Part shown: positions 21,763 through 39,745 of the stretch, piece by piece
How positions within the stretch are numbered: position 1 is the first letter of the stretch
Layout of the letters: every line of letters starts with the position of its first letter
NCBI RefSeq assembly: GCF_022601675.1
Contig: NZ_JAKVIL010000007.1
Coordinates: 1-64,000 of the forward strand
Origin: Ancylobacter gelatini
GTDB lineage: Bacteria > Pseudomonadota > Alphaproteobacteria > Rhizobiales > Xanthobacteraceae
DNA: 64,000 nucleotides
Direction of reading: 5' to 3'
The notes under the pieces: model-generated
What the model saw: only the letters and a program-made list of their open reading frames with translations
Told to the model about the DNA's origin: nothing
Databases searched by the model: none
Position numbers and translations under genes: made by a program

Positions 21763-22092
21763 GTCGATACCTGGGGGTTGCGCTGCGTAGCGGAGGGATG
21801 GCGGCGGGGTGAGGACGAGGCTATGAGCCGCTATAACCCCAAGGGTTTCATTCGGTTCCCTGCTCACGTGAATATTTGTCCGCTCATCGACAGCGCATTC
21901 GTCGGGAGCCGACATATTGCCGGCTAAGGACCTGATTGGGCTGTCTTCGTGCGCGGGCCACGGACACCGGGCGTGAATCACGCTTGGCGTGGCTGATGCG
22001 GTGATCTTTGTGAGAGTCCGGGAATGTTTCCAGGCGTGGAGCGCGAAGACGCCGGGCGCGGTGTACCGGAACCGGAGTTCGGCCAGGGGTGC
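21763..22092. other. Intergenic region with a 13-base palindrome
   Basis: No gene is evident between the receiver gene and the aminotransferase. The region contains the perfect palindrome GCGTGA-A-TCACGC at 21971-21983, a candidate operator for an unidentified dimeric regulator. Promoters for both divergent genes must lie in this region. Confidence 0.4.
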
Positions 22093-22122
22093 CCTGTCGC
22101 ATTGCGCATGAAACCTGTCGCA
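22093..22122 (+). promoter_or_regulatory. Direct-repeat operator candidate (site A) for a GlxA/AraC regulator
   Basis: CCTGTCGCA occurs twice, at 22093-22101 and 22114-22122, exactly 21 bases (two helical turns) apart, 106 bases ahead of the aminotransferase start. The first copy extends to TGTCGCATTGCGCA. AraC-type proteins bind direct repeats with this spacing. Similar sites stand before the genes at 24449 and 28070. Confidence 0.55.
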
Positions 22123-22227
22123 CGGAGAACTTCAGCGGCGTGAACTTCGCCGCACAATCCGTCATGGCCGGAGGTCGTTCTCCGCGGCTTTTTCCATCCG
22201 GCTTCACCGGTTCTCAAAGGGGTCGAC

Positions 22228-23286
22228 ATGCGGGCCGTCAGGCATGTGGAGCAATTGGCCGCCTATGCGCTGGCCGATCTCGGCGGTCAGCGGCGCACGC
22301 TGGCGCAGAATGAAAGCGCGTACCCGCCCAGCCCGCTTGCCATCGCCGCCGGCCACGCCGCGCTGGAAAACGCCGCGCTCTATCCCGATCCCGACTGGAC
22401 GGAGCTGCGCGCCGCGATCGCGGCCCAGCACGGGCTCGACCCCGCGACCATCCTGTGCGGCACCGGGTCGATGGACCTGATCAGTTGCACCATTCGCGCC
22501 TTCGCCGGTCCCGGCCGCGAGGTGCTCGCGCCCCGCTATGGCTATCTGTTCGCCGCCACCGCCACGGCGCAGGCCGACGCTACCTATGTGACCGTGGATG
22601 AAGCCCGCGGCATGGTCGATGTCGACGGGCTGCTGCGGGCCGTCACCCCGGCGACCGCCATGGTCTTCCTCTGCAATCCGGGAAATCCCACCGGCACCCG
22701 CATCCCGAGCCGCGAGATCCTTCGCCTGAGGGACGGGTTGCCGGCCTCGGTGCTTCTGGTCGTCGATCAGGCCTATGGCGAATTCGACGATCAGGACCAC
22801 CGCGCGGTGTTCGGTCTGGTTGCGCGTGGCGACACCGTGGTGCTGCGGACCTTCTCCAAGGCCTACGGGCTGGCAGGCGTGCGGATCGGCTGGGGCGTCT
22901 TCCCGCCCGAGGTCGGCCGGGAGGTGCGCAAGCTGCAGAACTCCAACGACGTGACCGTCATCGCCCTCGCCATGGCGGCGGCGGCGATGCGTGACCAGCT
23001 GCATATGCGCGATGTCGTCGCCCGCACCGCCGCCACCCGCGCGATCTTCGCCGAGGGCCTCACCGCCGCGGGCTATGCCGTGCTGCCGAGCCACACCAAT
23101 TTCGTCATGGTCCGCCTTGCGGATCGAGGCGAAGCCGACCGCGCCCATGCCGCCCTGCTCGGCGCCGGGCTGATCGCGCGGCAGCTCGGCGGCTACGGGC
23201 TGGCGGACAGCCTGCGCATCACCATCGGCCTGCCGGAGGAGATGCAGGCGGCGCTTGCGGTTCTCACCGGCCTCGCGCCGCGCTGA
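22228..23286 (+). CDS. PLP-dependent aminotransferase, HisC-like (class I/II)
   Basis: A 352-residue fold-type I aminotransferase. Motifs: CGTGSMDLISCTIRAFAGPG near residue 80, VFLCNPGNPTGT (residues about 148-159), VDQAYGEFD (the Asp/Tyr that hold PLP) and TFSKAYGLAGVRIGWG with the Schiff-base lysine. It looks like histidinol-phosphate aminotransferase, but it sits among nitrogen-compound catabolic genes rather than his genes, so it probably transaminates another amino acid. AAAGGGG precedes the ATG. The gene at 23324, a GlxA regulator, follows 37 bases later. Confidence 0.88.
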   Translation: MRAVRHVEQLAAYALADLGGQRRTLAQNESAYPPSPLAIAAGHAALENAALYPDPDWTELRAAIAAQHGLDPATILCGTGSMDLISCTIRAFAGPGREVLAPRYGYLFAATATAQADATYVTVDEARGMVDVDGLLRAVTPATAMVFLCNPGNPTGTRIPSREILRLRDGLPASVLLVVDQAYGEFDDQDHRAVFGLVARGDTVVLRTFSKAYGLAGVRIGWGVFPPEVGREVRKLQNSNDVTVIALAMAAAAMRDQLHMRDVVARTAATRAIFAEGLTAAGYAVLPSHTNFVMVRLADRGEADRAHAALLGAGLIARQLGGYGLADSLRITIGLPEEMQAALAVLTGLAPR

Positions 23287-23323
23287 GCCCCCCGGAACGG
23301 CAGCGTGGCAGGACCTCCAACCG

Positions 23324-24346
23324 ATGCTAGACGCCCCCATGTCCCTGTCGCACACCTTCGGGCATCTCGGCCAATCCGAGCGTCCGGTACGCATCGGCTT
23401 CTTCCTGGCGCCGGACTATCCGCTGATGACCTTCTCGGCGGCGCTGGACGCCCTGCGGCAGGCCAACCGCATCGCGGACCGCAAGGCCTTCGAATGGGTT
23501 CTGATCACGGCGGATGGAGGAGAGGCGCGCTCCAGTTCCGGCCTCGGCTTTCCGGCCAACGCCTCGCTCCGTAACGCGCCCCGTTGCGATGTCGTCATCG
23601 CCTGCGCCGGCGTCAACTTCGCCGCGGCCTACAGTCCGGCGCTGTTCAGCTGGCTTCAGCGGCTCTACGCGGAAGGCTGCGTGCTTGGCGCCATCAGCAC
23701 GGCGGTGTTCTATCTCGCCAGGGCCGGGCTGCTGGAGGGCCGGCGCTGCGCCATTCATTGGGAATCGCTGGAAGCGTTCCGCCATGAATTTCCCGGCTGC
23801 CTCGCAACCGACGATATCTTCGCCATAGACGGGCGCATCCTCACCTCGTCGGGCGGCACCGTTACGCTCGACATGATGCTGTACCTGATCACGCAGATCG
23901 AGGGGCGCGATCTCGCCTTCAGGATTTCCGACCAGTTCAATCATTCCCGCATCCGCCGGCAGCACGACAGCCAGCGCGTGCAGGCGGAGGATCGCTTCGA
24001 CGTCCGCCATGCCAAGCTCGCGCAGGTGATCAAGCGGATGGAAGGCAGCCTGTTCGAGCCGGTCGGCATCGCCGCGCTGGCGGACGCGGTGGGTCTGTCC
24101 TCGCGCCAGCTGGAGCGGCTGTTCCGCACGCATCTCGGCACCAGCCCGTCGAAATTCTACATCGGGCTGCGGATGGAGCGCTCGCGTGACCTGCTGCTGC
24201 ATACCGAATTGTCGGTTGCCGAGATCGCCGGCGTCTGCGGCTATGAAACGGCCTCGCATTTCAGCCGTTTCTATCGCCAGCACTTCAAGGAAGGCCCGCG
24301 GGCGACCCGTAAAGCCGACCGGGCGAGCCGGATGACGGCGCGCTGA
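23324..24346 (+). CDS. GlxA-family transcriptional regulator (DJ-1/PfpI plus AraC)
   Basis: A 340-residue regulator. The N-terminal half is a DJ-1/PfpI-like amidotransferase fold (IGFFLAPDYPLMTFSAALDALRQAN, CDVVIACAG, then GAISTAVFYLARAGLLEGR, where the usual nucleophile position is not a cysteine). The C-terminal half has the AraC helix-turn-helix pair: ALADAVGLSSRQLERLFRTHLG and SVAEIAGVCGYETASHFSRFYR. GlxA proteins (for example GbdR, CdhR, ArgR of Pseudomonas) activate catabolism of quaternary amines and amino acids. ATG 23324 has AGGAC upstream; ATG 23339 is an alternative. It probably acts on the direct-repeat sites found in this neighbourhood. Confidence 0.92.
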   Translation: MLDAPMSLSHTFGHLGQSERPVRIGFFLAPDYPLMTFSAALDALRQANRIADRKAFEWVLITADGGEARSSSGLGFPANASLRNAPRCDVVIACAGVNFAAAYSPALFSWLQRLYAEGCVLGAISTAVFYLARAGLLEGRRCAIHWESLEAFRHEFPGCLATDDIFAIDGRILTSSGGTVTLDMMLYLITQIEGRDLAFRISDQFNHSRIRRQHDSQRVQAEDRFDVRHAKLAQVIKRMEGSLFEPVGIAALADAVGLSSRQLERLFRTHLGTSPSKFYIGLRMERSRDLLLHTELSVAEIAGVCGYETASHFSRFYRQHFKEGPRATRKADRASRMTAR

Positions 24347-24349
24347 GCA

Positions 24350-24377
24350 TGTCGCATCGTGCAGGCTCGATGTCGGC
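24350..24377 (+). promoter_or_regulatory. Direct-repeat operator candidate (site B)
   Basis: TGTCGCATCGTGCA begins at 24350 and TGTCGGC at 24371, again 21 bases apart. An inverted copy (CGACAT) follows at about 24381-24386. It ends 72 bases before the ThDP-enzyme start and matches site A in sequence and spacing. Confidence 0.55.
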
Positions 24378-24448
24378 TCGCGACATTCTGCATCGGCGTC
24401 AGGGCTCTTAGTGCTGATCTGGCCGATAACGCGACCCGCACGGAACAG

Positions 24449-26101
24449 ATGGACGATCGAAAGACCACCACCGGCGCCGGCTATATCGCCTCCGTGCTCA
24501 AGGGCGCTGGCGTGCGCCATCTCATCGGCTATCCGACGAGCGAACTGTTCGACGCCGCCGCCGAGCTGGACATTCCCCCGATCATGGCGCGCTCGCAGCG
24601 CGTGGCGGTGAACATCGCCGAGGGCTGCGCCCGCACCGCGCAAGGCGCCGAGCCGGTGGTGGTGACGGTGCAATATGGGCCGGGCGTCGAAAGCGCGTTC
24701 GGCGGCATCGCGCAGGCCTTCAATGATCGCGCGCCCCTGCTTTTCCTGCCGACCGGCTATCCGCGCGACTCCCAGGGCGTGGCGCCGAATTTCGAGGCGC
24801 AGCGCAGCTTCCAGCACATCACCAAATGGAGCGAGCGCGTCTCCCGGACGCAGGACCTGCCGCGTCTGCTGCACGCGGCGCTGTCGCGCCTGCGGCAGGG
24901 CAGCCCCGGCCCGGTGATGCTGGAACTGCCCGCCGACCTGCTCGCCGAGCCGTTCGAACCGCCGGCCGCTGACTGGCCGCTGCTCCCGCGCAGCGCCCCG
25001 CAGGCCGATCCGGCGGAGATCGCTAGCGTAATGCGCAGGCTGCTGAACGCGGACAACCCGCTGATCCTCGCAGGTCAGGGTGTGCTGGCGGCGGGTGCGA
25101 GCGAGGAACTCGTCGCCTTCGCCGAGCGGTTCTCGATCCCGGTGGCAACCACGCCGAACGGCAAGAGCGCCTTCCCGGAGACGCATCCGCTCGCGCTCGG
25201 CGCCATCGGGCGCGCGCGGCCGGCAACCGTCGATCATTTCCTGGGCAAGGCCGATATCGTGCTGGCGCTCGGCAGCAGCCTGACGCGCTCCTACTACATC
25301 CTGCCGATTCCGCCGGACAAGACGATCCTCCAGGTCACGCTCGACGCGGCCGACATCGGCAAGGACTACCCCGTCGCCCAGGCGGTGATCGGCGATGCGC
25401 GCGCCGTGCTCCGGCAGATGCTCGATGCCGGCCATCCGGCGCGGGAGGGCAGGGGCCTGCGCGAGGAGATCGCGGCCGTGCGCCGCCGCTTCCTGGAGCG
25501 ATGGGCGCCGCTGCTCGCCGCCGACAGCCACCCCATCTCGCCGTATCGCGTGGTCGGGGAAATGATCGCCGCGCTCGATCCGGCCCGCACCATTCTCACC
25601 CACGATGCCGGCAATCCGCGCGACCAGCTCATGCCGTTCTACGCGGCGACGATGCCGGGCGGCTATGTCGGCTGGGGCAAGACCACCCAGCTCGGCAGCA
25701 GCCTCGGCTTTGCCATGGGCGCGCGGCTCGCCCGGCCGGACCGGCTGTGCGTCGCGCTGATGGGGGAGGCCGCCTTCGGCATGACCGGCATGGATTTCGA
25801 GACCGCGATCCGTTGCGACCTGCCCATCCTCGTCGTGCTGCTGCGCAATGGCGTGATGGGCGGCTCCGCCGCCGGCATGCCCAAGGCGACGGCCAAATAC
25901 GGCGCCAATCGCGTCACCGGCCGCTACGCTCCGATCGCGCAGGCGCTCGGCGGTTATGGCGAAAGCGTCGCTGATCCGGCCGACCTGCGCGCGGCCCTGC
26001 TGCGCGGCATCGCGCGGGTCGATGGCGGACAGGCGGCGCTGATCGAGGTGGACACCCACGAGGAGCCCCGGCTTCCGGGACTCTGGCAGAAAGAGCTCTA
26101 G
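24449..26101 (+). CDS. Thiamine-diphosphate-dependent enzyme, acetolactate-synthase-like
   Basis: A 550-residue protein with the three domains of the acetolactate synthase/benzoylformate decarboxylase family. The cofactor-activating glutamate is Glu58 (NIAEGCAR). The middle domain has LILAGQGVLAAGA. The ThDP/Mg motif reads MGEAAFGMTGMDFETAIR...LRNGVMGG instead of the usual GDG...NN, so the metal-binding Asp is replaced by Glu. The substrate is unknown. It is fused operonically to an amidohydrolase-like gene: its TAG is immediately followed by that gene's ATG. The ribosome site is weak (CGGAACAG). Confidence 0.88.
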   Translation: MDDRKTTTGAGYIASVLKGAGVRHLIGYPTSELFDAAAELDIPPIMARSQRVAVNIAEGCARTAQGAEPVVVTVQYGPGVESAFGGIAQAFNDRAPLLFLPTGYPRDSQGVAPNFEAQRSFQHITKWSERVSRTQDLPRLLHAALSRLRQGSPGPVMLELPADLLAEPFEPPAADWPLLPRSAPQADPAEIASVMRRLLNADNPLILAGQGVLAAGASEELVAFAERFSIPVATTPNGKSAFPETHPLALGAIGRARPATVDHFLGKADIVLALGSSLTRSYYILPIPPDKTILQVTLDAADIGKDYPVAQAVIGDARAVLRQMLDAGHPAREGRGLREEIAAVRRRFLERWAPLLAADSHPISPYRVVGEMIAALDPARTILTHDAGNPRDQLMPFYAATMPGGYVGWGKTTQLGSSLGFAMGARLARPDRLCVALMGEAAFGMTGMDFETAIRCDLPILVVLLRNGVMGGSAAGMPKATAKYGANRVTGRYAPIAQALGGYGESVADPADLRAALLRGIARVDGGQAALIEVDTHEEPRLPGLWQKEL

Positions 26102-27436
26102 ATGTTCGACACGCTCATCACCGGCGGCACCGTCGTCAATGCCGAGGGCGCCGCACCGGCCGGGCTCGCGCTGAGCGGCGGGCGCGTGGCGGCGCTGCTC
26201 GCCCCCTCCGAGAGCGCGCCCGCGCGGCGGACCATCGACGCTTCCGGCCTCTACCTCCTGCCGGGCCTCGTCGACGCGCATGTGCATCTGCGCGAGCCCG
26301 GCCTCACGCATAAGGAGGACGTCACGTCCGGCACGCAGGCGGCGGCGCTCGGCGGCGTGACGACGCTGCTCGACATGCCGACCGACGAGCCCTGGACGGT
26401 CAGCCCGGAAGACCTTGCCGACAAGGCGGCCGTCACGCAGGGCCGGCTGCATGTCGATGTCGGATTCCAGGTCGCGGTGCGGCACGGCGGGCCCGACCGG
26501 ACCCGCTTCACCGGCCTCTCGCCGGTCTCCTTCGAGGTCTTCACGGCCGACGTCCCCGAGCTCTTCCTGTTCGACACGATCGATCGCCTGACGCAGGCGC
26601 TGGCCGCCTTTGCCGGCAGCCGGCAACTCGTCGGCGTCTCGCCGGGCGACCAGTCGATTCTTGACGGACAGGCCGCGCGCGACAGCGCGGGCGACGCGGC
26701 CGCGTTCGGCCGCAGCCGGCCGCCGCTCGCCGAGGCCAACGGCGTCGCGCGCGCCGTGCTCGCGGCGGCGACGACCGGCGCGCGCATCCATGTCCGGCAG
26801 ATCAACGCCGCGCTCGGCGTCGCCACCTGGCGCCGGATGCGCGATCTCGCCGACGCCTCCGTCGAGACGACGGTGCAGAACCTGTTCTTCACCGCCGCCG
26901 ATTATGAGACGCAGGGCGCGCGCCTGAAGGCCTCGCCCCCTTTTCGCGATCTCGCGGATGTCGAAGCCCTGCGCGCCGCCCTCGCCGAGGGGCTGATCGA
27001 CATCGTCGCGACCGACCACGCCCCGCACGCCCCGGCGGAGAAGGCGGCGCCGTACTCCGCCTTTGCCGACATTCCCGGCGGCATGCCGGGCGTGCAGACC
27101 CTGCTGCCGGCCATGCTGCGGCTGGTGGAGGAGAAGGTGATCGACCTGCCCGCCCTGGTGCGCCTGTGCGCGTGCAATCCCGCCGCCCGCTTCGGCCTCG
27201 CCACGCGCAAGGGGCGGATCGCGCCGGGCTTCGATGCCGACATCCTCTTTCTCGATCCGCGTGGCGAAACCCAGATCCGCGACGAGGCGCAGCTGTCGCG
27301 CGGCGGCTACACCCCGTTCCACGGCTGGACCGTGCCGGGCGCGCTGAGGGCGGTGCTGCTGCGCGGGACCGAGGTCATGCGCGACGGCCGGCTGGTCGGG
27401 CCTCCCCACGGCCAGGTGGTCGGCGGCACGTTCTGA
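26102..27436 (+). CDS. Dihydroorotase/hydantoinase-family amidohydrolase with an altered metal site
   Basis: A 444-residue cyclic amidohydrolase. Asp58-x-His60-x-His62 (DAHVHLREPG), His230 (RIHVRQIN) and Asp305 (ATDHAPHA) are conserved. Two positions differ from the family: the bridging carboxylated lysine (normally in an FKxF motif) reads FEVF, giving Glu145, and the histidine normally found in HAE reads VSPGD, giving Ser180. So the two-metal centre is probably changed, perhaps to one metal. It begins directly after the ThDP enzyme stop, with no spacer. Substrate: presumably a ring amide such as a hydantoin, but this is inference. It is not a housekeeping PyrC. Confidence 0.85.
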   Translation: MFDTLITGGTVVNAEGAAPAGLALSGGRVAALLAPSESAPARRTIDASGLYLLPGLVDAHVHLREPGLTHKEDVTSGTQAAALGGVTTLLDMPTDEPWTVSPEDLADKAAVTQGRLHVDVGFQVAVRHGGPDRTRFTGLSPVSFEVFTADVPELFLFDTIDRLTQALAAFAGSRQLVGVSPGDQSILDGQAARDSAGDAAAFGRSRPPLAEANGVARAVLAAATTGARIHVRQINAALGVATWRRMRDLADASVETTVQNLFFTAADYETQGARLKASPPFRDLADVEALRAALAEGLIDIVATDHAPHAPAEKAAPYSAFADIPGGMPGVQTLLPAMLRLVEEKVIDLPALVRLCACNPAARFGLATRKGRIAPGFDADILFLDPRGETQIRDEAQLSRGGYTPFHGWTVPGALRAVLLRGTEVMRDGRLVGPPHGQVVGGTF

Positions 27437-27526
27437 ACGACCCGGAGGGCGGGCTCGGCCATGACGCGGGAAGGCGCCATCAAGGGGAGGTGTTCATGGA
27501 TCGGGAACGGGGTGGCAGGACCGCGC

Positions 27527-27870
27527 CGGCGTTCGGTGCCAGTGGCGGGCTCGGCGGGGCGATCGCGCGCGCTCTGCCGCGAAAGGCACGAGCGTGGTGG
27601 TTGCCGACATCAACGGCGCGGCCGCGCAGGTGACGGCCGACGACATCGCGCAGGCGGCGCCGGGCGTGTCGCCTTCCTCGACCGGCAGAAGGCGCAGCGC
27701 GGGCCGTTGAGGACGTGGCGGCACAAAGCACTGCCGCCATTCCGGTCCGCCGCTAGGGCGGTCCGCGCGAACAGGGCGATACCGTCGCCTGCCTCGCGAG
27801 TACGCGCGCCTCTTAACAATACCGGCAGCGCGGTGCGCGTCGATGGCGGGCTGATCGCCAGCGTCCGAGG
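27527..27870 (+). pseudogene. Short-chain dehydrogenase (SDR) remnant
   Basis: Two recognisable ends of a classical SDR remain, in shifting frames. The beginning reads GASGGLGGAIARAL, and after a frameshift AAKGTSVVVADINGAAAQVT, which is the cofactor-binding Rossmann start. The end, at about 27817-27870, reads TGSAVRVDGGLIASV, which is the C-terminal signature. The Tyr-x3-Lys catalytic centre between them is gone and only about 115 codons separate the ends. So an SDR gene once followed the amidohydrolase in the same operon and was lost by deletion and frameshift. Confidence 0.75.
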
Positions 27871-27918
27871 GCGGCATGGGCGGCGGGATCGAGTATCGCC
27901 GCCGTCCCCCGCCCCGCA

Positions 27919-27947
27919 TGTCGCATGCTGCATATTTTGCTGCCATT
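27919..27947 (+). promoter_or_regulatory. Operator candidate (site C), single strong half-site
   Basis: TGTCGCATGCTGCA at 27919-27932 matches sites A and B over the word TGTCGCAT-NN-YGCA. The second half is weaker: TGCCAT begins 22 bases after the first. It lies 123 bases ahead of the MFS start. Confidence 0.4.
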
Positions 27948-28069
27948 CCCGCCATTCACGCGCACGGCGCCACCGACATAGTGGAGGCGATCGGCCATTC
28001 GTCGATCGGCCACGCGTCCCCCGCTCGGGTCGCATGGCCGCGCACCCCCAAGCTCACGATCACCTTCCC

Positions 28070-29317
28070 ATGTCGCTGATGTCCCGCGCCGGCCTCGCCC
28101 CGGCGTCCCGCCTTCGCCAGCTCGGCCCGATGATGTTCAGCCTCCTGGTGGTCATCAGCGGGAACGCGGTTCTCACCTCGGCGCTCTCGCTCCGGCTCGC
28201 GCAGCCGCATTGGGCGGAATGGGAGGTGCAGTGGCTGCTCACGGGCTTCCCCGCCGGCTTTCTCGCCGGGTGCGTGCTGGGGCGGGTGCCGGTGGCGCGG
28301 CTCGGCCACCAGCGAGCGTTCCTGGTGCTGGGCGGCGTGGTGGTGCTGGCGGCCCTCGGTCTCGGCCTCACCGATCGGATCGAGGTGTGGCTGCCGCTGC
28401 GCTTTCTCAACGGTTTCGCCGTCGCCGCGATCTTCGTGGCGATGGAGAGCTACATCAACCTCTACGCCGAGCCGCGCCGGCGCGGGGTCTATTTTTCGCT
28501 CTACATGGTGGCGACCTCGCTGGCCGTGGTGATGGGCCAGATCGTGATCACGGCGGTCGGCACCGAATCGCCCTATCTGTTCGAGGTCGGCATGCTGGTG
28601 TGCCTGGCCGGCCTGCTGCACTGCCGCTATGTCGGCCGCGCCTGGCCGTCCTTGTCGGTGCCGCTCGTGTCGGCGACGCTCGTGCCGGCGCCGCCGGAGC
28701 GTCCCGTCCCGACGCGATGCGGCAACTTTGCCAGCCTGTTCCGCAGCGCGCCCGCGACGATCATCTGCGTGTTCCAGGCCGGCATGACCAATATGAACGT
28801 CGTCGCGCTCACGCCGATCTACGGCGCGCAGATCGGCCTGCCTTCCATGCTGTCGATCGCCATGGTCACGGCGTTCATGACCGGTGGCCTGCTGGCGCAG
28901 GCGCCTGTCGGCTGGCTGTCGGATCGCACGCCGCGGCTGCTGCTCCTGCTGGTGCAGAGCCTGCTCGCCTGCGCACTCTGCCTCGTGATCGTCCTCATCG
29001 GATCGGCTGCGCCGCTGTTGCTCTGGTTGGTGTTCTTCGCATATGGCGCGGCGGCGCTGACCATGTATCCCGTCGCCAGCGCGCATGCCAATGCCCAGAT
29101 CGACAGCCGGCAGATGGTCGCCGCCTCCGGCCTGCTGCTGTCGCTTTATTCGCTCGGCAACATTGCCACGCCGGGCACCGCGGCCGGCCTGATGAGCCGC
29201 TTCACGCCGGGCGCCCTGTTCGTGATGCTTGGGGCCGGCGCCGTGCTGGTCGGCGCTACCGCCCTGTTCAGTCTGGTGCGCGAGCGCCGTGGCGCGGCGC
29301 GCCCGGCGGCCCGGTGA
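28070..29317 (+). CDS. MFS transporter
   Basis: A 415-residue protein with about 12 hydrophobic segments. The motif between helices 2 and 3 reads GRVPVARLGHQRAFLVLG, and a second copy between helices 8 and 9 reads VGWLSDRTPRLLLLL. The family resembles YcaD/YfcJ-type drug or metabolite exporters. It lies in the nitrogen-catabolism block between the amidohydrolase and a GlxA regulator on the same strand, so it could take up or export the pathway compound. A second ATG at 28079 is possible; neither has a strong ribosome site. Confidence 0.88.
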   Translation: MSLMSRAGLAPASRLRQLGPMMFSLLVVISGNAVLTSALSLRLAQPHWAEWEVQWLLTGFPAGFLAGCVLGRVPVARLGHQRAFLVLGGVVVLAALGLGLTDRIEVWLPLRFLNGFAVAAIFVAMESYINLYAEPRRRGVYFSLYMVATSLAVVMGQIVITAVGTESPYLFEVGMLVCLAGLLHCRYVGRAWPSLSVPLVSATLVPAPPERPVPTRCGNFASLFRSAPATIICVFQAGMTNMNVVALTPIYGAQIGLPSMLSIAMVTAFMTGGLLAQAPVGWLSDRTPRLLLLLVQSLLACALCLVIVLIGSAAPLLLWLVFFAYGAAALTMYPVASAHANAQIDSRQMVAASGLLLSLYSLGNIATPGTAAGLMSRFTPGALFVMLGAGAVLVGATALFSLVRERRGAARPAAR

Positions 29318-29456: not shown

Positions 29457-30575
29457 TTGGAAGAGCTGACCCGAGCCGCCGAAAGACCCTGCGCACCATC
29501 GCCGCGAACCGGCAGTGCGTCCGCTGCCCCGCCCATCCGCGTCGCTTTCGTGCTAACGCCAGGCTTCTCCTTCATCTCCTTCGCCTGCGCGATCGACGTG
29601 CTGCGCGTCGCCAACATGCTGAGCGGGCAGACGCTGTACAGCTATCGGGTGCTGTCGACGGTGGAAGGGCAGGTGCATGCCAGCAATGGCACGCCGGCTG
29701 TGCCGGAAGCCCATTTCGAGAAGGGCGGGGACTGCCAGCTCATCGTGGTTTTCGCCAGCTATGGCGCCGAGCAGACCGAGGACGAGGCCCTGTTCGCGTG
29801 GCTGCGTCGTGCCTCCCGGCGCGGCACCTGCATCGCGGCCGCCGGCACGGCGCCTTACATCCTGGCGCGAGCCGGCCTGCTCGAAGGGCGCCTCGCGGCG
29901 CTGCACTGGGAAAGCATCAATTCCTTCATGGAGGAGTTTCCCGGCCTTGGCGTGTGCGACCGGGTGTTCGTCGAGGACAAGAACGTCTGGACCTGCTGCG
30001 GCGGCACCTCCGCCTTTGACATGATGGTCGCGCTGGTGGCGCGCGATCATGGGGCGGAGCTGTCACGCGCGGTCGCCGATCAGCTGGTCTATCCGTCGGT
30101 GCGCAAATCCGGCGACACCCAGCAGCGCAGCGCCGAGCGGCTGCGGCTGGTGGACCCGGAACTCGCCGCTCTCATCAAGCTGATGGAGGGCACGCTCGAA
30201 GACCCTCTCACCCTCGAACAGCTGGCGCGGCGCGCGCACCTGTCGCCGCGCAAGATGCAGCGGCTGTTCGCGACGCGCATCGGCCGCACGCCCAAGCAGT
30301 TCTATGTGGAGCTGCGCCTGGCCCGCGCGCGCAGCCTGCTGTCGCAGACCCGCATGCCGGTGGCGGAAATCGCCGTGTCCTGCGGCTTCAGCTCGGCGTC
30401 GCACTTCAGCAATCTCTATAAGCGCGTCTACCAGATCAGCCCGCTCGCCGAGCGGGCGCGCGCGCAGGCGAGTGCCGGCGGCAGCTATAATCTCGCCTCC
30501 TCGATGCCTCCGAAACAGGCCTATCGCTTCACGCCCGCGGCCGACGGTCCGACCGGCGATCACGCCGGCTCGTAG
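29457..30575 (+). CDS. GlxA-family transcriptional regulator (second copy)
   Basis: A 372-residue protein, again a DJ-1/PfpI-like N-terminal domain (RVAFVLTPGFSFISFACAIDVLRVAN, LIVVFASYGA, IAAAGTAPYILARAGLLEGR) and two AraC helix-turn-helix units (QLARRAHLSPRKMQRLFATRIG and PVAEIAVSCGFSSASHFSNLYK). The Cys nucleophile of true DJ-1 enzymes is not in place. The best start is TTG 29457, which has GAGG upstream; no in-frame ATG occurs before the domain core. It is the second GlxA regulator within 6 kb, which suggests one per sub-pathway. Its 3' end overlaps the convergent hydrolase by 16 bases. Confidence 0.9.
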   Translation: MEELTRAAERPCAPSPRTGSASAAPPIRVAFVLTPGFSFISFACAIDVLRVANMLSGQTLYSYRVLSTVEGQVHASNGTPAVPEAHFEKGGDCQLIVVFASYGAEQTEDEALFAWLRRASRRGTCIAAAGTAPYILARAGLLEGRLAALHWESINSFMEEFPGLGVCDRVFVEDKNVWTCCGGTSAFDMMVALVARDHGAELSRAVADQLVYPSVRKSGDTQQRSAERLRLVDPELAALIKLMEGTLEDPLTLEQLARRAHLSPRKMQRLFATRIGRTPKQFYVELRLARARSLLSQTRMPVAEIAVSCGFSSASHFSNLYKRVYQISPLAERARAQASAGGSYNLASSMPPKQAYRFTPAADGPTGDHAGS

Positions 30576-31822
30576 CCGTTCACAAAGCCGAGCAGCAGCT
30601 GGATGCCGCGATCGAGGTCCGCCATGTCCAGATGCTCATCCGGGTTGTGGCTGCCATGGGCGTTGCGCACGAAGATCATCCCGGTGGGAATGCCGGCGGA
30701 GGCGAACACCGCCGCGTCGTGGCCGGCGCCGCTGGAAAGAACGGGTGCCGCCAGACCCAGATGCGCCGCCGTCCGCGACAGGCGTTCGACGATATCCGCG
30801 TCCATGCGGCCCGGCGCCCATGAGTAGGCCTCGCCGAGATCGATGCGGGTGTGCCGCCGGTGCCCGGCCGCGTCGGCGAGACGCTCGATCTCGCGGCGCA
30901 CGGCGTCGAGGTCGTCCTGATGCTCGGAGCGCACATCCAGCGTGAAGCCGAGCTCGCCCAGAACACGGCTGCCGCCATGCTGGGCGGGATCGCTCTCCAC
31001 CCGCCCGAAGGTGAGGGTGAACTCCTTGCCCGCCTCGGCAAGCCGGTCCCACAGCGCTTCCAGCGCGTTGACGAATTCGGTGAAGCCGAGAACGCTGTCG
31101 GCGCGGCTCCGGCGCGGCTCGGCGCCGGAATGGGCGTAGGTTCCGAGACAGCGCGCCCGCTGGTAGCGGAAGCCGCCATTGATGGCGGTGACGATGCCGA
31201 GCGCGCAGCCGCGATCCACCAGGCGCGGGCCCTGTTCGATGTGCAGCTCGACGAAGGCCGCGATGCGGTCCGGCTTGATCTGCCGCTCGCCGCGCGCCAC
31301 CGCCCGCGGATCGAAGCCGGCCTCCCGCATGTGCTCGGCAAGGCTGCGTCCGGTGTCGGCGCGAGGGGCATCGAGGGCGTCGTCGGGCAGCAGTCCGAGC
31401 GCCGCCCGCGAGCCGGGATAGGACACGGGGAACCACGCGGCCTCTTCCGAGCGGATCGCCATCACCGTCACGTCGCGGCTCGGCCGGCCGCGCTCGCGCA
31501 GGGCCGAGAGCGCCGCGACGCCGGCCACCACACCGGCGGCGCCGTCATAGTTCCCGCCATGGGGAACGCTGTCGAGATGCGAGCCGATGACCAGCGCCGG
31601 GAGCGTGCGATCCGCTCCCGGCAAGGTCAGATAAAGGTTGCCGGCGGCATCGACGCGGGCCTGCGCGCCAAGGCGCTCCGCCTCGCGCCGCACGATGTCG
31701 TGGGCGCGCTGCTCGCCCGCGCCATAGGCCGCGCGGGTGACGCCGGGCGCATCGCCTGTCGCCGCCGCGATCTCCTCCAGCAGCCGGGAGGCCAGCGCGC
31801 CCGCGGGCGAAAGTGCCGTCAC
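30560..31822 (-). CDS. Zn-dependent hydrolase, N-carbamoyl-L-amino-acid hydrolase/allantoate amidohydrolase type (M20)
   Basis: A 420-residue M20-family enzyme. Metal ligands are visible: GSHLDSVPHGGNYDG gives His82 and Asp93, SEEAAWFP holds the catalytic and metal-binding glutamates, and ELHIEQGP supplies the next His. The C-terminal HGSHNPDEH supplies another. The family cleaves N-carbamoyl-amino acids or allantoate, releasing CO2 and ammonia. GTG 31822 is taken as the start because it follows the previous stop by one base. Upstream partner: a PuuE-like deacetylase, supporting a ureide or hydantoin substrate. Confidence 0.9.
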   Translation of the reverse strand: MTALSPAGALASRLLEEIAAATGDAPGVTRAAYGAGEQRAHDIVRREAERLGAQARVDAAGNLYLTLPGADRTLPALVIGSHLDSVPHGGNYDGAAGVVAGVAALSALRERGRPSRDVTVMAIRSEEAAWFPVSYPGSRAALGLLPDDALDAPRADTGRSLAEHMREAGFDPRAVARGERQIKPDRIAAFVELHIEQGPRLVDRGCALGIVTAINGGFRYQRARCLGTYAHSGAEPRRSRADSVLGFTEFVNALEALWDRLAEAGKEFTLTFGRVESDPAQHGGSRVLGELGFTLDVRSEHQDDLDAVRREIERLADAAGHRRHTRIDLGEAYSWAPGRMDADIVERLSRTAAHLGLAAPVLSSGAGHDAAVFASAGIPTGMIFVRNAHGSHNPDEHLDMADLDRGIQLLLGFVNGYEPA

Positions 31823-31823
31823 C

Positions 31824-32741
31824 TCACGCCGCCTGCGCCGTGAACGGGTGCTGCGCGATCCAGTGACGGGCGATCTGCGCCCGCCCGGCGAACCAGACGG
31901 CTTCATGGGCCATCATGTGATCGAGCAGCCGCTCAAGCGCGCCGATCCGGCCCGGACGTCCGATCAGTCGGTTGTGCAGTCCGACCGACATCATGCGCGG
32001 CATCACCGCGCCGCGGCGGTGCAGCCAGTCGAAGGAATCGCGCACATAGGTGTAGAAGTGCTCGCCGAGGTCGAAGCCCTGGGCCCGGGTCATCCGGCTG
32101 TCGTTATTGTCGAGGCTGTAGGGCACGATGAGGTGCGGCCGGCCGTGTTCGGTCGTCCAGTACGGCACGTCGTCGCTGTAGGAATCGCAGTCGTAGAGGA
32201 AGCCGCCCTCCTCGACGAGCAGGCGCCGCGTATTGATGCTGGGCCGGCCCGTGTACCAGCCCACCGGCCGCGTGCCGGTCATCTCCTCGATGACCCTGAT
32301 GCACCGCTTGATGTCGGCGCGCTCGTCCTCTTCCGAGACGGTGTGGTAGTCGATCCAGCGATAGCCATGGCCCGCGACCTCGTACCCCGCCTCGCGAATG
32401 GCGGCGGCGACCTGCGGGTTGCGTTCCAGCGCCATGCCCACGGCATAGATCGTCAGCGGCAGGTTGCGCTCGCGGAACAGCCGCAGGATCTCCCAGAAGC
32501 CGACGCGGCTACCATACTCGAAATTGGATTCGACGTTCAGGTGGCGCTCGCCGAACATCGCCGGCGGCGAGTCCAGATCGGTCAGCACCGTCTCGGAATG
32601 CGGATCGCCGTGAAGGATGGAGTACTCGCCGCCTTCCTCGTAGTTGAGGACGAAGGAGACCGCGACGCGCGCGTCGCCGGGCCAGTGCGGGTTGACCGGG
32701 TTCGGGCCATAGCCGATCAGGTCGCGGGGATAGCTCTGCAT
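31824..32741 (-). CDS. PuuE-like polysaccharide-deacetylase-family protein (allantoinase type)
   Basis: A 305-residue protein of the NodB/PuuE fold. The stretch VSFVLNYEEGGEYSILHGD is typical of PuuE, where it replaces the acidic motif of true deacetylases, and VAGHGYRWIDYHTVSEE and WYTGRPSINTRRLL are further family blocks. PuuE allantoinases open allantoin to allantoate without the classical metal-dependent amidohydrolase fold. The next gene in the operon is an allantoate/carbamoyl amidohydrolase-type enzyme, giving a consistent two-step route. The exact substrate could be a different ureide. Confidence 0.85.
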   Translation of the reverse strand: MQSYPRDLIGYGPNPVNPHWPGDARVAVSFVLNYEEGGEYSILHGDPHSETVLTDLDSPPAMFGERHLNVESNFEYGSRVGFWEILRLFRERNLPLTIYAVGMALERNPQVAAAIREAGYEVAGHGYRWIDYHTVSEEDERADIKRCIRVIEEMTGTRPVGWYTGRPSINTRRLLVEEGGFLYDCDSYSDDVPYWTTEHGRPHLIVPYSLDNNDSRMTRAQGFDLGEHFYTYVRDSFDWLHRRGAVMPRMMSVGLHNRLIGRPGRIGALERLLDHMMAHEAVWFAGRAQIARHWIAQHPFTAQAA

Positions 32742-32803
32742 GAAAGATCCTTCATTGGTCCCCGGAGCGCCCCGGCGGGCGGGGCACTCCGGTCACTTTG
32801 CGG

Positions 32804-33697
32804 TCAGATGAGGCCCTTGGAGGCCAGGAAGCCCTGGGCGGTGGCCTCGACGCTCTTCTTGTCGACGTCCACCTCGGCATTGAGGCGCGCCATGACATCG
32901 GCATCCAGCAGGGCGGAGACCTTGTTGAGCAGCGTGCCGATCTGCGGATTCTTGTCGAGCACCTCCTGCCGGACCACCGGGGCCAGGATGTAGGAGGCGA
33001 AGACCTGCTTGTCGTCCTTGAGCGCGACGAGATCGAAGGCGGGGATGCGCCCGTCGGTGGCGAAGCCGAGCGAGACGTCGACCTGCCCGTTCTTCACCGC
33101 GTCATAGACGAGGCCCGAGCTCATGACCTTGGTGTTGGGACGGCCGAAGCTGTAATCATAGGTCTTCTCGACCAGCTTCAGCCCGTCGACACGCTGGGTG
33201 AATTCGGGATCGCAGGCGAAGGTGACCGTGGTCCCGTCCGTGATGAGCTTGGCCATGTCCGACATGCTGGTCAGCTTGTGCTTGGCCGCATTCTCCTTCG
33301 TCATCATGAAGACGAAGGTGTTGTCGGCCTTGGACGGTTCGAGCCAGACGATGCCCTTCTTGGCGTCCAGCTCCTTGACCTTCTTGTAGGTCTCGTCCGG
33401 CGGCAGCGTTTCCTTCACCTTGTTGTAGCTGAGGAGCGAGGTGCCGGTATATTCCCAGTAGACGTCGATCTGGCCGTTCTCCATCGCCTGCCGCACGACG
33501 CTGCTGCCCATGTCGACCTTGCTGTCGACGGTGAAGCCGTTCTTCGCCAGAAGCTGCGAGGTGATGGAGGCCAGGATCAGTTGCTCGGTGAAGTCCTTGC
33601 CGCCGACCACCACGGACGGGCCGGCGGCGAAGCCGGGGGTGGCCGAGGCGAGCAGGCCGACAATGCCGGCCGCGATGATGAATTGACGCCGTTTCAT
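32804..33697 (-). CDS. Glycine betaine/choline-type ABC transporter substrate-binding protein
   Basis: A 297-residue secreted protein of the OpuAC/OsmF family. It starts with a signal peptide (MKRRQFIIAAGIVGLLASATPGFAA), and the mature part shows VVVGGKDFTEQLILASITSQLL, MENGQIDVYWEYTG and VTFACDPEFTQR, typical of the YehZ/OsmF type. It is part of the ABC operon with two permeases and a CBS-fused ATPase. The ligand may be a betaine, but the operon context (ureide hydrolases downstream) makes another quaternary or nitrogenous solute possible. AGAGGG precedes the start. Confidence 0.93.
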   Translation of the reverse strand: MKRRQFIIAAGIVGLLASATPGFAAGPSVVVGGKDFTEQLILASITSQLLAKNGFTVDSKVDMGSSVVRQAMENGQIDVYWEYTGTSLLSYNKVKETLPPDETYKKVKELDAKKGIVWLEPSKADNTFVFMMTKENAAKHKLTSMSDMAKLITDGTTVTFACDPEFTQRVDGLKLVEKTYDYSFGRPNTKVMSSGLVYDAVKNGQVDVSLGFATDGRIPAFDLVALKDDKQVFASYILAPVVRQEVLDKNPQIGTLLNKVSALLDADVMARLNAEVDVDKKSVEATAQGFLASKGLI

Positions 33698-38333: not shown

Positions 38334-39745
38334 GGCTGGGTCTCCTCGAGCGGTCTCATAAGGGTTGCCGGGTCCGCCGCCCGGCGGGGTACGAAGCGGC
38401 CGGCGGGCGGCAGGGAACTGAGCGTGCCGCGGTCGAGCACGAGGGTCCCGCGCACCAGCGCCGTTTCCGGCTTGCCGGTGATCGCGTGCCCTTCGAAGGG
38501 GGTGAAGCCGACATGGGACTGCAGCGCCTCGGCGCGGATCTCCCAGCGGTGCCCGGGGTTCCACAGCACGAGATCGGCGTCGAGGCCGATGGCGATCGCG
38601 CCCTTGAGGTGATCGAGCCCATAGGTCTGTGCCGCCGCGCCGCCGGCAAGGTCCAGATAGCGCGCCAGCGAGAGCCGCCCGGTGACCAGCCCTTCGGAGA
38701 ACAGCAGCGGCAGCCGCGTCTCCAGCCCCGGCACGCCGCTTACCGCGCGGTCGAAGCGCGCGGTCTCGCCCTCTTTCAGCTTGTCGCTCAGCCGATAGGG
38801 CGAATGGTCGGATGACCAGAGCCGGATCGCGCCATCCTCCATCGCCTGCCACAGCGCGGCGTTGTCGGCGCTCGTGCGGGCGGGCGGGGCGAAGATGTAG
38901 CGCGCGGCTTCCGCGTCCGGCGCGTCGAGCCGCGCCCCGGTCAGGAACAGATATTGCGGGCAGGTCTCGCCGATGATCGCGACGCCGCGCCCGGCCGCGC
39001 GCACCACCTCGTCGAGCGAGGCGCCCGACGAGACATGCACGATGACGAGGCGCGCCCCGGTCACCTCCGCGAAGGCGGCGACGCGGTGGGTCGCTTCCCG
39101 CTCGGCGACGGCGGCATGGGCGAGCGTGTGATAGCGCAGCGCGACATCCCCGCGCGCCAGCAGCCGGTCGCGCATCCGCTCGATGATCGCGTCGCTTTCG
39201 GCATGAAGCATGACGGTGACGCCGTGCGCCCGGGCTTCGTCCATCATGGCGAGCAGGCGGCGGTCGCTGACGGCGAAACCCTCATAGGTGAGGAACGCCT
39301 TCACCGAGGGTACGCCCTGCCGGACCAGATCGGGCATCTGCGCGTCGATGGCGCCGCTTTGCTCGGTCACGACCGCGTGCAGTCCGTAATCCACCACCGA
39401 CCTGCCCCGTGCCAAGGCCTGCGACCGGGCGACGGCGTCGAGCGTGCTCATCTGCGGGCCGGGCATGGCGAAGGGCACGATGCAGGTGGTGCCCCCGAAC
39501 AGGGCGGATGCCGAGCCCGAGGCGAAGCCGTCCGCCGTCGTCGCGCCGCCCCAGGACGGCTGGTCGAGATGGCAATGCGCGTCGATGCCGCCCGGCAGCA
39601 CCCAGCGCTCGCGGGCATCGATGATCGTCGCGCCGGAAAGGTCGGTGCCTAGCGCCGCGATCTTGCCGCCCTCTATGGCGATGTCGATCGTCCGCCAGCC
39701 ATCCGGCAGGCCGACCCGGCCACCCTTCACCACGATTTCATGCAT
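38318..39745 (-). CDS. hydA: D-hydantoinase / dihydropyrimidinase
   Basis: A 475-residue cyclic amidohydrolase with all metal ligands: His57 and His59 (GGIDAHCHLD), the carboxylated Lys149 (SVKAFLTYEG), His181 (VMLHAESD), His237 (VIVHVSSG) and Asp313 (SSDHSPY). It opens 5-substituted hydantoins or dihydropyrimidines to N-carbamoyl amino acids, which the next gene product can hydrolyse. Contrast the protein at 26102, which has lost two of these ligands. The RidA gene ends 73 bases before its start. Confidence 0.94.
   Translation of the reverse strand: MHEIVVKGGRVGLPDGWRTIDIAIEGGKIAALGTDLSGATIIDARERWVLPGGIDAHCHLDQPSWGGATTADGFASGSASALFGGTTCIVPFAMPGPQMSTLDAVARSQALARGRSVVDYGLHAVVTEQSGAIDAQMPDLVRQGVPSVKAFLTYEGFAVSDRRLLAMMDEARAHGVTVMLHAESDAIIERMRDRLLARGDVALRYHTLAHAAVAEREATHRVAAFAEVTGARLVIVHVSSGASLDEVVRAAGRGVAIIGETCPQYLFLTGARLDAPDAEAARYIFAPPARTSADNAALWQAMEDGAIRLWSSDHSPYRLSDKLKEGETARFDRAVSGVPGLETRLPLLFSEGLVTGRLSLARYLDLAGGAAAQTYGLDHLKGAIAIGLDADLVLWNPGHRWEIRAEALQSHVGFTPFEGHAITGKPETALVRGTLVLDRGTLSSLPPAGRFVPRRAADPATLMRPLEETQPWRAS

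Follow-up and report, generated by a model that had tools for sequence, protein, structure and literature searches.

Does a short DNA word repeated in front of three gene units mark one regulon, and if so, which regulator reads it? The question is raised by a 64,000-nucleotide stretch of Ancylobacter gelatini (RefSeq assembly GCF_022601675.1, contig NZ_JAKVIL010000007.1, positions 1 to 64,000), called the window below, in which a 14-base word stands upstream of genes for an aminotransferase (22095), a thiamine diphosphate (ThDP)-dependent enzyme (24350), and a major facilitator superfamily (MFS) transporter (27919), in a block that also holds two GlxA-type regulator genes, glxA1 (23324) and glxA2 (29457). 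An earlier note had read the word as a direct-repeat operator of GlxA/AraC regulators that unites the three genes in one regulon; our results partly support that interpretation, whose kind of explanation was correct and which reached too far on two points, by including GlxA2 and by ranking the third site level with the other two. Sequence comparison makes 22095 and 24350 very probable operators of GlxA1, and we have good confidence in the fuller reading that a GlxA1 dimer on these paired sites would, with its inducer, activate an aminotransferase-glxA1 unit and a ThDP enzyme-amidohydrolase unit, to which the site at 27919 may add the MFS gene.

The word TGTCGCATNNYGCA matches exactly at 22095-22108, 24350-24363, and 27919-27932, all on the plus strand and in front of the three genes named in the earlier note, and at the first two sites a second TGTCG, at 22116 and 24371, follows with a period of exactly 21 bases, again as that note had it; at the third, position 27940 reads CTGCC and there is no second TGTCG. 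The three matches compare with a shuffle expectation of 0.01, and none of 100 shuffles of the window held three, a value that overstates the case because the pattern was fitted after the three sites had been seen. Across the organism's own assembly (4,308,108 bases in 20 contigs), the word occurs at these three places only, all within the block, and a reversed control pattern occurs nowhere, so that the motif did not turn out to be common genome-wide. The longer pattern TGTCGCATNNNGCA-N7-TGTCG, with up to three mismatches allowed, was found at 55 places in the genome, two without mismatch (22095 and 24350), three with two mismatches, and 50 with three. Within the window, TGTCG-N5-YGCA alone is present at four further places (23013 and 42516; on the minus strand, 47600 and 22834). 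In a set made up of the own genome and 60 relatives, 31 of the 61 hold at least one copy of the 14-base word, and most of the set have none to two; three to five copies are present in four other genomes (G033 with five, G060 with four, G049 and G054 with three each), where they are spread across contigs or lie hundreds of kilobases apart. Just one of the 29 loci fetched around copies in relatives (L026) has a GlxA-like gene within it, about 570 bases from a word that, by eye, seems to fall within a different, oppositely oriented gene, and treating the copies in relatives as functional sites brought no gain.

The main evidence for GlxA1 comes from orthologous loci on plasmids. When 72,556 plasmids were searched by tblastn with the ThDP enzyme (E 1e-100), 38 records matched, 16 of them at 60-80% identity, and a search with GlxA1 (E 1e-60) returned 57, of which the 16 at 60-80% identity were the same 16 records. 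Their hosts belong to Rhizobium, Neorhizobium, and Paracoccus, and in each record glxA shares its strand with the ThDP gene, which follows 11.4-11.6 kb downstream; many are near-copies, representing about five lineages, nine distinct gap starts, and eight distinct operators. The pattern TGTCG-N5-YGCA-N7-TGNCG is present on the coding strand within 300 bases past the glxA1 orthologue in all 16, beginning at base 5 past the glxA stop in 14 and at bases 71 and 92 in R. jaguaris and P. aminophilus, respectively. Simulated gaps of the same composition contained the pattern 0, 0, 0, 1, and 4 times per 20,000 for the five lineages and twice per 20,000 for the gap of the window. The predicted operator at 24350 is conserved in position, standing just past glxA1 and, in the relatives, before an operon that carries the ThDP gene further down. 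That operon is completely annotated in five of the 16 records (one of the five without a listed ATPase) in the order glxA, peptide-type ABC transporter, MFS, dihydropyrimidinase, short-chain dehydrogenase (SDR), NAD(P) oxidoreductase, PuuE, ThDP enzyme, amidohydrolase, and two SDRs; its start is annotated in six more, and the remaining five are unannotated there.

A test free of the post hoc fitting was made with a 26-base matrix built from eight foreign operators only, with near-copies down-weighted, by scanning both strands of the window and of 60 simulated first-order Markov windows. The matrix placed 22095 first (24.7 bits) and 24350 second (18.2 bits), and the simulated windows gave a best score of at most 20.3 and a second best of at most 16.1; 22095 therefore exceeds every simulated best, and 24350 is notable only as a second-ranked match.

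The features of the block, all on the plus strand, are as follows.

22095..22120, plus strand: predicted operator 1, TGTCGCATTGCGCA-N7-TGTCG, 133 bases before the aminotransferase ATG.
22228..23286, plus strand: class I/II aminotransferase, HisC-like (251 bits, under the hisC cut-off of 277).
23324..24346, plus strand: glxA1, regulator with a DJ-1/PfpI domain and an AraC-type helix-turn-helix (HTH) domain (65-72% identity to its orthologues in the 16 plasmid records).
24350..24375, plus strand: predicted operator 2, TGTCGCATCGTGCA-N7-TGTCG, beginning at the fourth base past the glxA1 stop and 99 bases before the ATG at 24449.
24449..26101 (likely start), plus strand: ThDP-dependent enzyme (NCBIfam PRK06154, 769 bits against a cut-off of 607; 67% to the Rhizobium orthologue).
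26102..27436, plus strand: cyclic amidohydrolase of dihydroorotase/allantoinase type (61% to the Rhizobium relative).
27700..27813, plus strand: relic of an SDR gene, like the last SDR of the Rhizobium operon (58% over 38 amino acids, E 6e-7).
27919..27932, plus strand: candidate operator 3, a lone half-site, TGTCGCATGCTGCA, with the probable ATG of the MFS gene 151 bases further on.
28070..29317, plus strand: MFS transporter (50% over 28103-29275 to the MFS inside the Rhizobium operon).
29457..30575, plus strand: glxA2, second DJ-1/PfpI and AraC-type regulator (38% identity to its Rhizobium counterpart; not a member of the operator clade described below).

Start codons were assigned by reading the sequence together with the point at which similarity begins, and the distances above run from the first base of each site to these revised starts. 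The automatically listed start of the ThDP reading frame, GTG 24359, falls inside operator 2; ATG 24449 appears the likeliest start, though it is not settled, with BLAST similarity beginning at 24461 and the profile match earlier, at about 24413. The MFS gene probably starts at ATG 28070. The dehydrogenase relic sits between the amidohydrolase gene, the last of the second unit, and the third site.

A rival reading, in which the sites belong to GlxA2 instead of GlxA1 or are used by both regulators, was weighed together with the regulator phylogeny. Both proteins match PF01965 and PF12833 above cut-off, in that order, glxA2 comes after the MFS gene, and related regulators can share sites, GbdR having been described as binding the caiX-cdhR region at a place overlapping the CdhR site (PMC5806209). 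Ownership by GlxA2 is nonetheless improbable: the operator lies beside glxA1 orthologues in every one of the 16 plasmid records, whereas GlxA2 (E 1e-60) finds four plasmid records, all of Paracoccus at about 44% and none among those 16, and the four [T/G]GTCG pairs spaced at 21 bases in the window (22095, 24350, 43733, and 7107) include none near glxA2. A tree of 41 regulators unites GlxA1 with two more distant relatives and five of the 16 plasmid regulators in one clade with support of 100/100, and GlxA2 falls outside it on a long branch. We rejected GlxA2 as owner on the plasmid records, the pairs in the window, and the tree; the proposal of a GlxA/AraC direct-repeat operator is supported for glxA1 and not for glxA2. 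The two distant relatives (56% and 53%), with the organism's own GlxA1, are the matches at E 1e-95 or better in at least three of 397 genomes of the order, a lower bound given that at most five candidates were scored per genome. Both have TGTCGC-N15-TGTCGC from 36 and 35 bases past the regulator stop, and in G538, the one for which neighbouring genes were classified, the regulator gene is followed by a peptide-type ABC operon with genes for SBP_bac_5, permease, MFS, and dehydrogenase.

The arrangement at the paired sites has published counterparts (PMC5806209 and PMC10963909). CdhR, which like GbdR belongs to the GATase-1-like AraC subfamily and whose gene adjoins its target operon, uses GGTCGC half-sites with a 15-bp spacer, both of which are needed for caiX induction, and its sites are stated to be very similar to those of GbdR, SouR, and ArgR (PMC5806209). 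ArgR of P. aeruginosa, of AraC/XylS type, reads ARG boxes of the form TGTCGC-N6-GNAA in tandem with a 5-bp gap, the second copy being generally weaker and less conserved (PMC10963909), and the resulting 21-base period of TGTCGC words is that of the predicted GlxA1 sites. The half-site direction and 15-bp spacer of this group are present in the window, 22095 having TGTCGC twice and 24350 TGTCGC followed by TGTCGG. The inner part differs: ArgR boxes have N6-GNAA where the window has N5-YGCA, all three sites reading TGTCGC-AT-NN-YGCA with no GNAA at positions 13-16, and the targets differ as well. Neither regulator is GbdR proper, as GlxA1 scores 298.9 bits and GlxA2 269.8 against the NF052371 equivalog cut-off of 480, and the neighbours in the window are the ThDP enzyme, cyclic amidohydrolase, aminotransferase, and MFS genes, not quaternary-amine genes as with CdhR, GbdR, and SouR. 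The architecture of the predicted GlxA1 control is that published for the GATase-1-like AraC regulators ArgR, GbdR, CdhR, and SouR, a kind already known; what is new is the set of predicted targets and the occurrence of separate pieces each with its own site, where the relatives have one operator and one long operon.

From these published relatives with the same anatomy (PMC5806209 and PMC10963909), we infer that GlxA1 would bind as a dimer in direct orientation and activate transcription. The half-sites read by each dimer would be two TGTCG-type words in direct repeat, which a distance of 21 bases, or two helical turns, puts on the same face of the DNA, and an inducer held by the DJ-1/PfpI domain of GlxA1 would bring about activation of both the aminotransferase-glxA1 unit and the ThDP enzyme-amidohydrolase unit; a single shared inducer is envisaged, which would be a metabolite of the ThDP/amidohydrolase pathway, and the half-site at 27919 may bring the MFS transporter under GlxA1 too. 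Since glxA1 starts 37 bases past the aminotransferase gene, operator 1 would make glxA1 autoregulated, perhaps serving it as well as the aminotransferase. When the promoters are stacked, a hexamer that is T-rich and resembles a -10 element is seen by eye about 35 bases past the start of the second word, which would set the second half-site near -35; this placement was judged by eye. Binding upstream, as a class I activator, is described for CdhR (PMC5806209).

Several results weigh against this reading. The bare pair TGTCG-N16-TGTCG occurs at 82 places in the genome against 34 for its reversed control, so that the spacing by itself proves nothing and the 21-base period is informative only in combination with the inner YGCA; of the match and the repeated spacing that the earlier note had called unusual, the 14-base match is indeed rare and the bare spacing is common. 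As simulated best scores reach 20.3, the 18.2 bits of 24350 are unremarkable taken alone. With the first 14 matrix positions only, 22095 still ranks first, but at 15.5 against a simulated mean best of 15.4, and 24350 is fourth; this chance-level result indicates that the signal is carried by the pair and not by the half-site. The site at 27919 is absent from the top 12 matches of the 26-base matrix and the top 25 of the 14-base one. No counterpart of the aminotransferase site at 22095 was found in the two relative loci checked; unlike 24350, this site is not known to be conserved in position. Both distant relatives have TGTA in the inner position that YGCA takes elsewhere. Of 27 further homologues of GlxA (41-46% identity), three have a [T/G]GTCG pair at 21 bases in their flanks, with no clear enrichment, and the spacing histogram of 29 GlxA loci has no clear peak, 21 and 34 bases being equal at five pairs each. 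The own genome encodes seven GlxA-type regulators at E 1e-20, GlxA1 and GlxA2 included, and four of the 82 bare pairs lie within 3 kb of their genes (P 0.012), a closeness that is not significant once the two sites studied here are left out (P 0.21). A scan of 22000-28200 detected no sigma-70 consensus promoter, and in P. alloputida, where spacing varies, the 5-bp ARG-box spacer is described as clearly conserved at argG only (PMC10963909).

On such grounds one could argue that a degenerate word has been fitted to three unrelated promoters by chance. The pattern is post hoc, bare spaced pairs are common, the 14-base foreign matrix performs at chance level, and the 8-base TGTCGCAT by itself occurs four times against 2.8 expected. 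A matrix made without the window's sites nevertheless returns two of the three as its first and second matches, and the position of 24350 past glxA1 is conserved. Pure chance was rejected for the two paired sites on the foreign matrix and the 16 plasmid records; we consider it highly improbable as an explanation of the whole and largely refuted for the pairs, a conclusion that does not cover 27919.

For the third site, the rival is narrower: only the paired sites would be operators, and the half-site at 27919 would have arisen by chance or belong to a small hairpin past the decayed dehydrogenase. The missing second word and the low foreign-matrix score agree with this, and a terminator-like hairpin at 27916-27928 (GCATG-TCG-CATGC with a T-rich tail) overlaps the site. 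Against it stand the complete match to a 14-mer otherwise confined, in the own assembly, to the other two sites of the block, the fact that an MFS gene with a relative inside the Rhizobium operon starts 151 bases on, and the generally lower conservation of the second ARG box (PMC10963909); hairpins as such number three against 2.2 expected by chance. We regard this as a real possibility that we lean against, and grade the site as weak: with one half-site, and passed over by the foreign matrix, it does not stand level with 22095 and 24350, the first and second foreign-matrix matches, in the regulon that had been drawn from all three.

How the GlxA1 locus came to be divided can be approached by comparison with the plasmid operon, which shares a related regulator, ThDP enzyme, amidohydrolase, and MFS transporter (50-67%) and the same operator past glxA. 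There, one operator precedes one long operon; in the window, there are separate units, a dehydrogenase present as a relic only, an aminotransferase, and extra operator-like sites, and the ABC transporter has no such counterpart at the locus. The aminotransferase is probably a recruit to the block, judging from its plasmid relatives (11 records, 50-62%, in Leisingera and Ruegeria), two of whose 11 loci were examined and proved to be hydantoinase/oxoprolinase operons that have neither an annotated GlxA gene nor the operator in their vicinity; one of these aminotransferase loci, L120, has a single relaxed half-site inside another gene. We tentatively propose, at only a little short of an even balance of belief, an operon-fission history in which a long one-operator operon of a plasmid-mobile ThDP/cyclic-amidohydrolase pathway was broken up, the surviving pieces each kept or gained a copy of the operator, the aminotransferase was captured, and the glxA1 cistron came under operator 1, with the inner YGCA as a specificity code against the ArgR, GbdR, and CdhR boxes. 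No close orthologue of the ThDP enzyme was seen in the window's genus at E 1e-50, at which 25 of 121 genomes match, the only other match within the genus (G029) being at 34%. A literature search on the plasmid-borne ThDP/cyclic-amidohydrolase pathway found no paper, and the main text of the pAMI1 paper (PMC3925955) does not contain the terms hydantoin, allantoin, dihydropyrimidinase, or thiamine pyrophosphate.

On this reading, a regulator not characterised before and a catabolic gene cluster carried on plasmids would become a regulon that can be tested, its predicted operators being named, in rhizobia that are easy to handle in the laboratory, and a reporter controlled by GlxA1 could serve to find the inducer of the pathway. 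It suggests that the TGTCG half-site and two-turn spacing known from Pseudomonas also hold for an alphaproteobacterial branch, in which specificity would likely reside in the inner bases, and the locus may exemplify the splitting of an operon with its control sites retained.

Other genes of related function lie near the block. On the minus strand at 30560-33697 and facing it are genes for an M20 carbamoylase-type amidase, a PuuE allantoinase, and an OsmF-like binding protein, a region in which the TGTCG-N5-YGCA word was not found, and a dihydropyrimidinase gene (38369-39742, minus strand; 41% to HydA of the Rhizobium operon) stands apart from the block.

Elsewhere in the genome, two further pairs look, from their sequence and surroundings, like operators of sister regulators. 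An operator-like pair with two mismatches at C16:37155-37180, the only one of the three two-mismatch places with both TGTCG words intact, lies 159 bases before a gene for an OpuAC-type binding protein, followed by MmgE/PrpD, and 2.4 kb from another GlxA gene. At C2:156079-156104 on the minus strand, an ARG-box-like TGTCGC-CTCTTC-GCAA pair starts 114 bases upstream of a gene for a Rieske oxygenase resembling GbcA (462 bits, under the cut-off of 670) and near two GlxA regulators, one of them 1 kb away.

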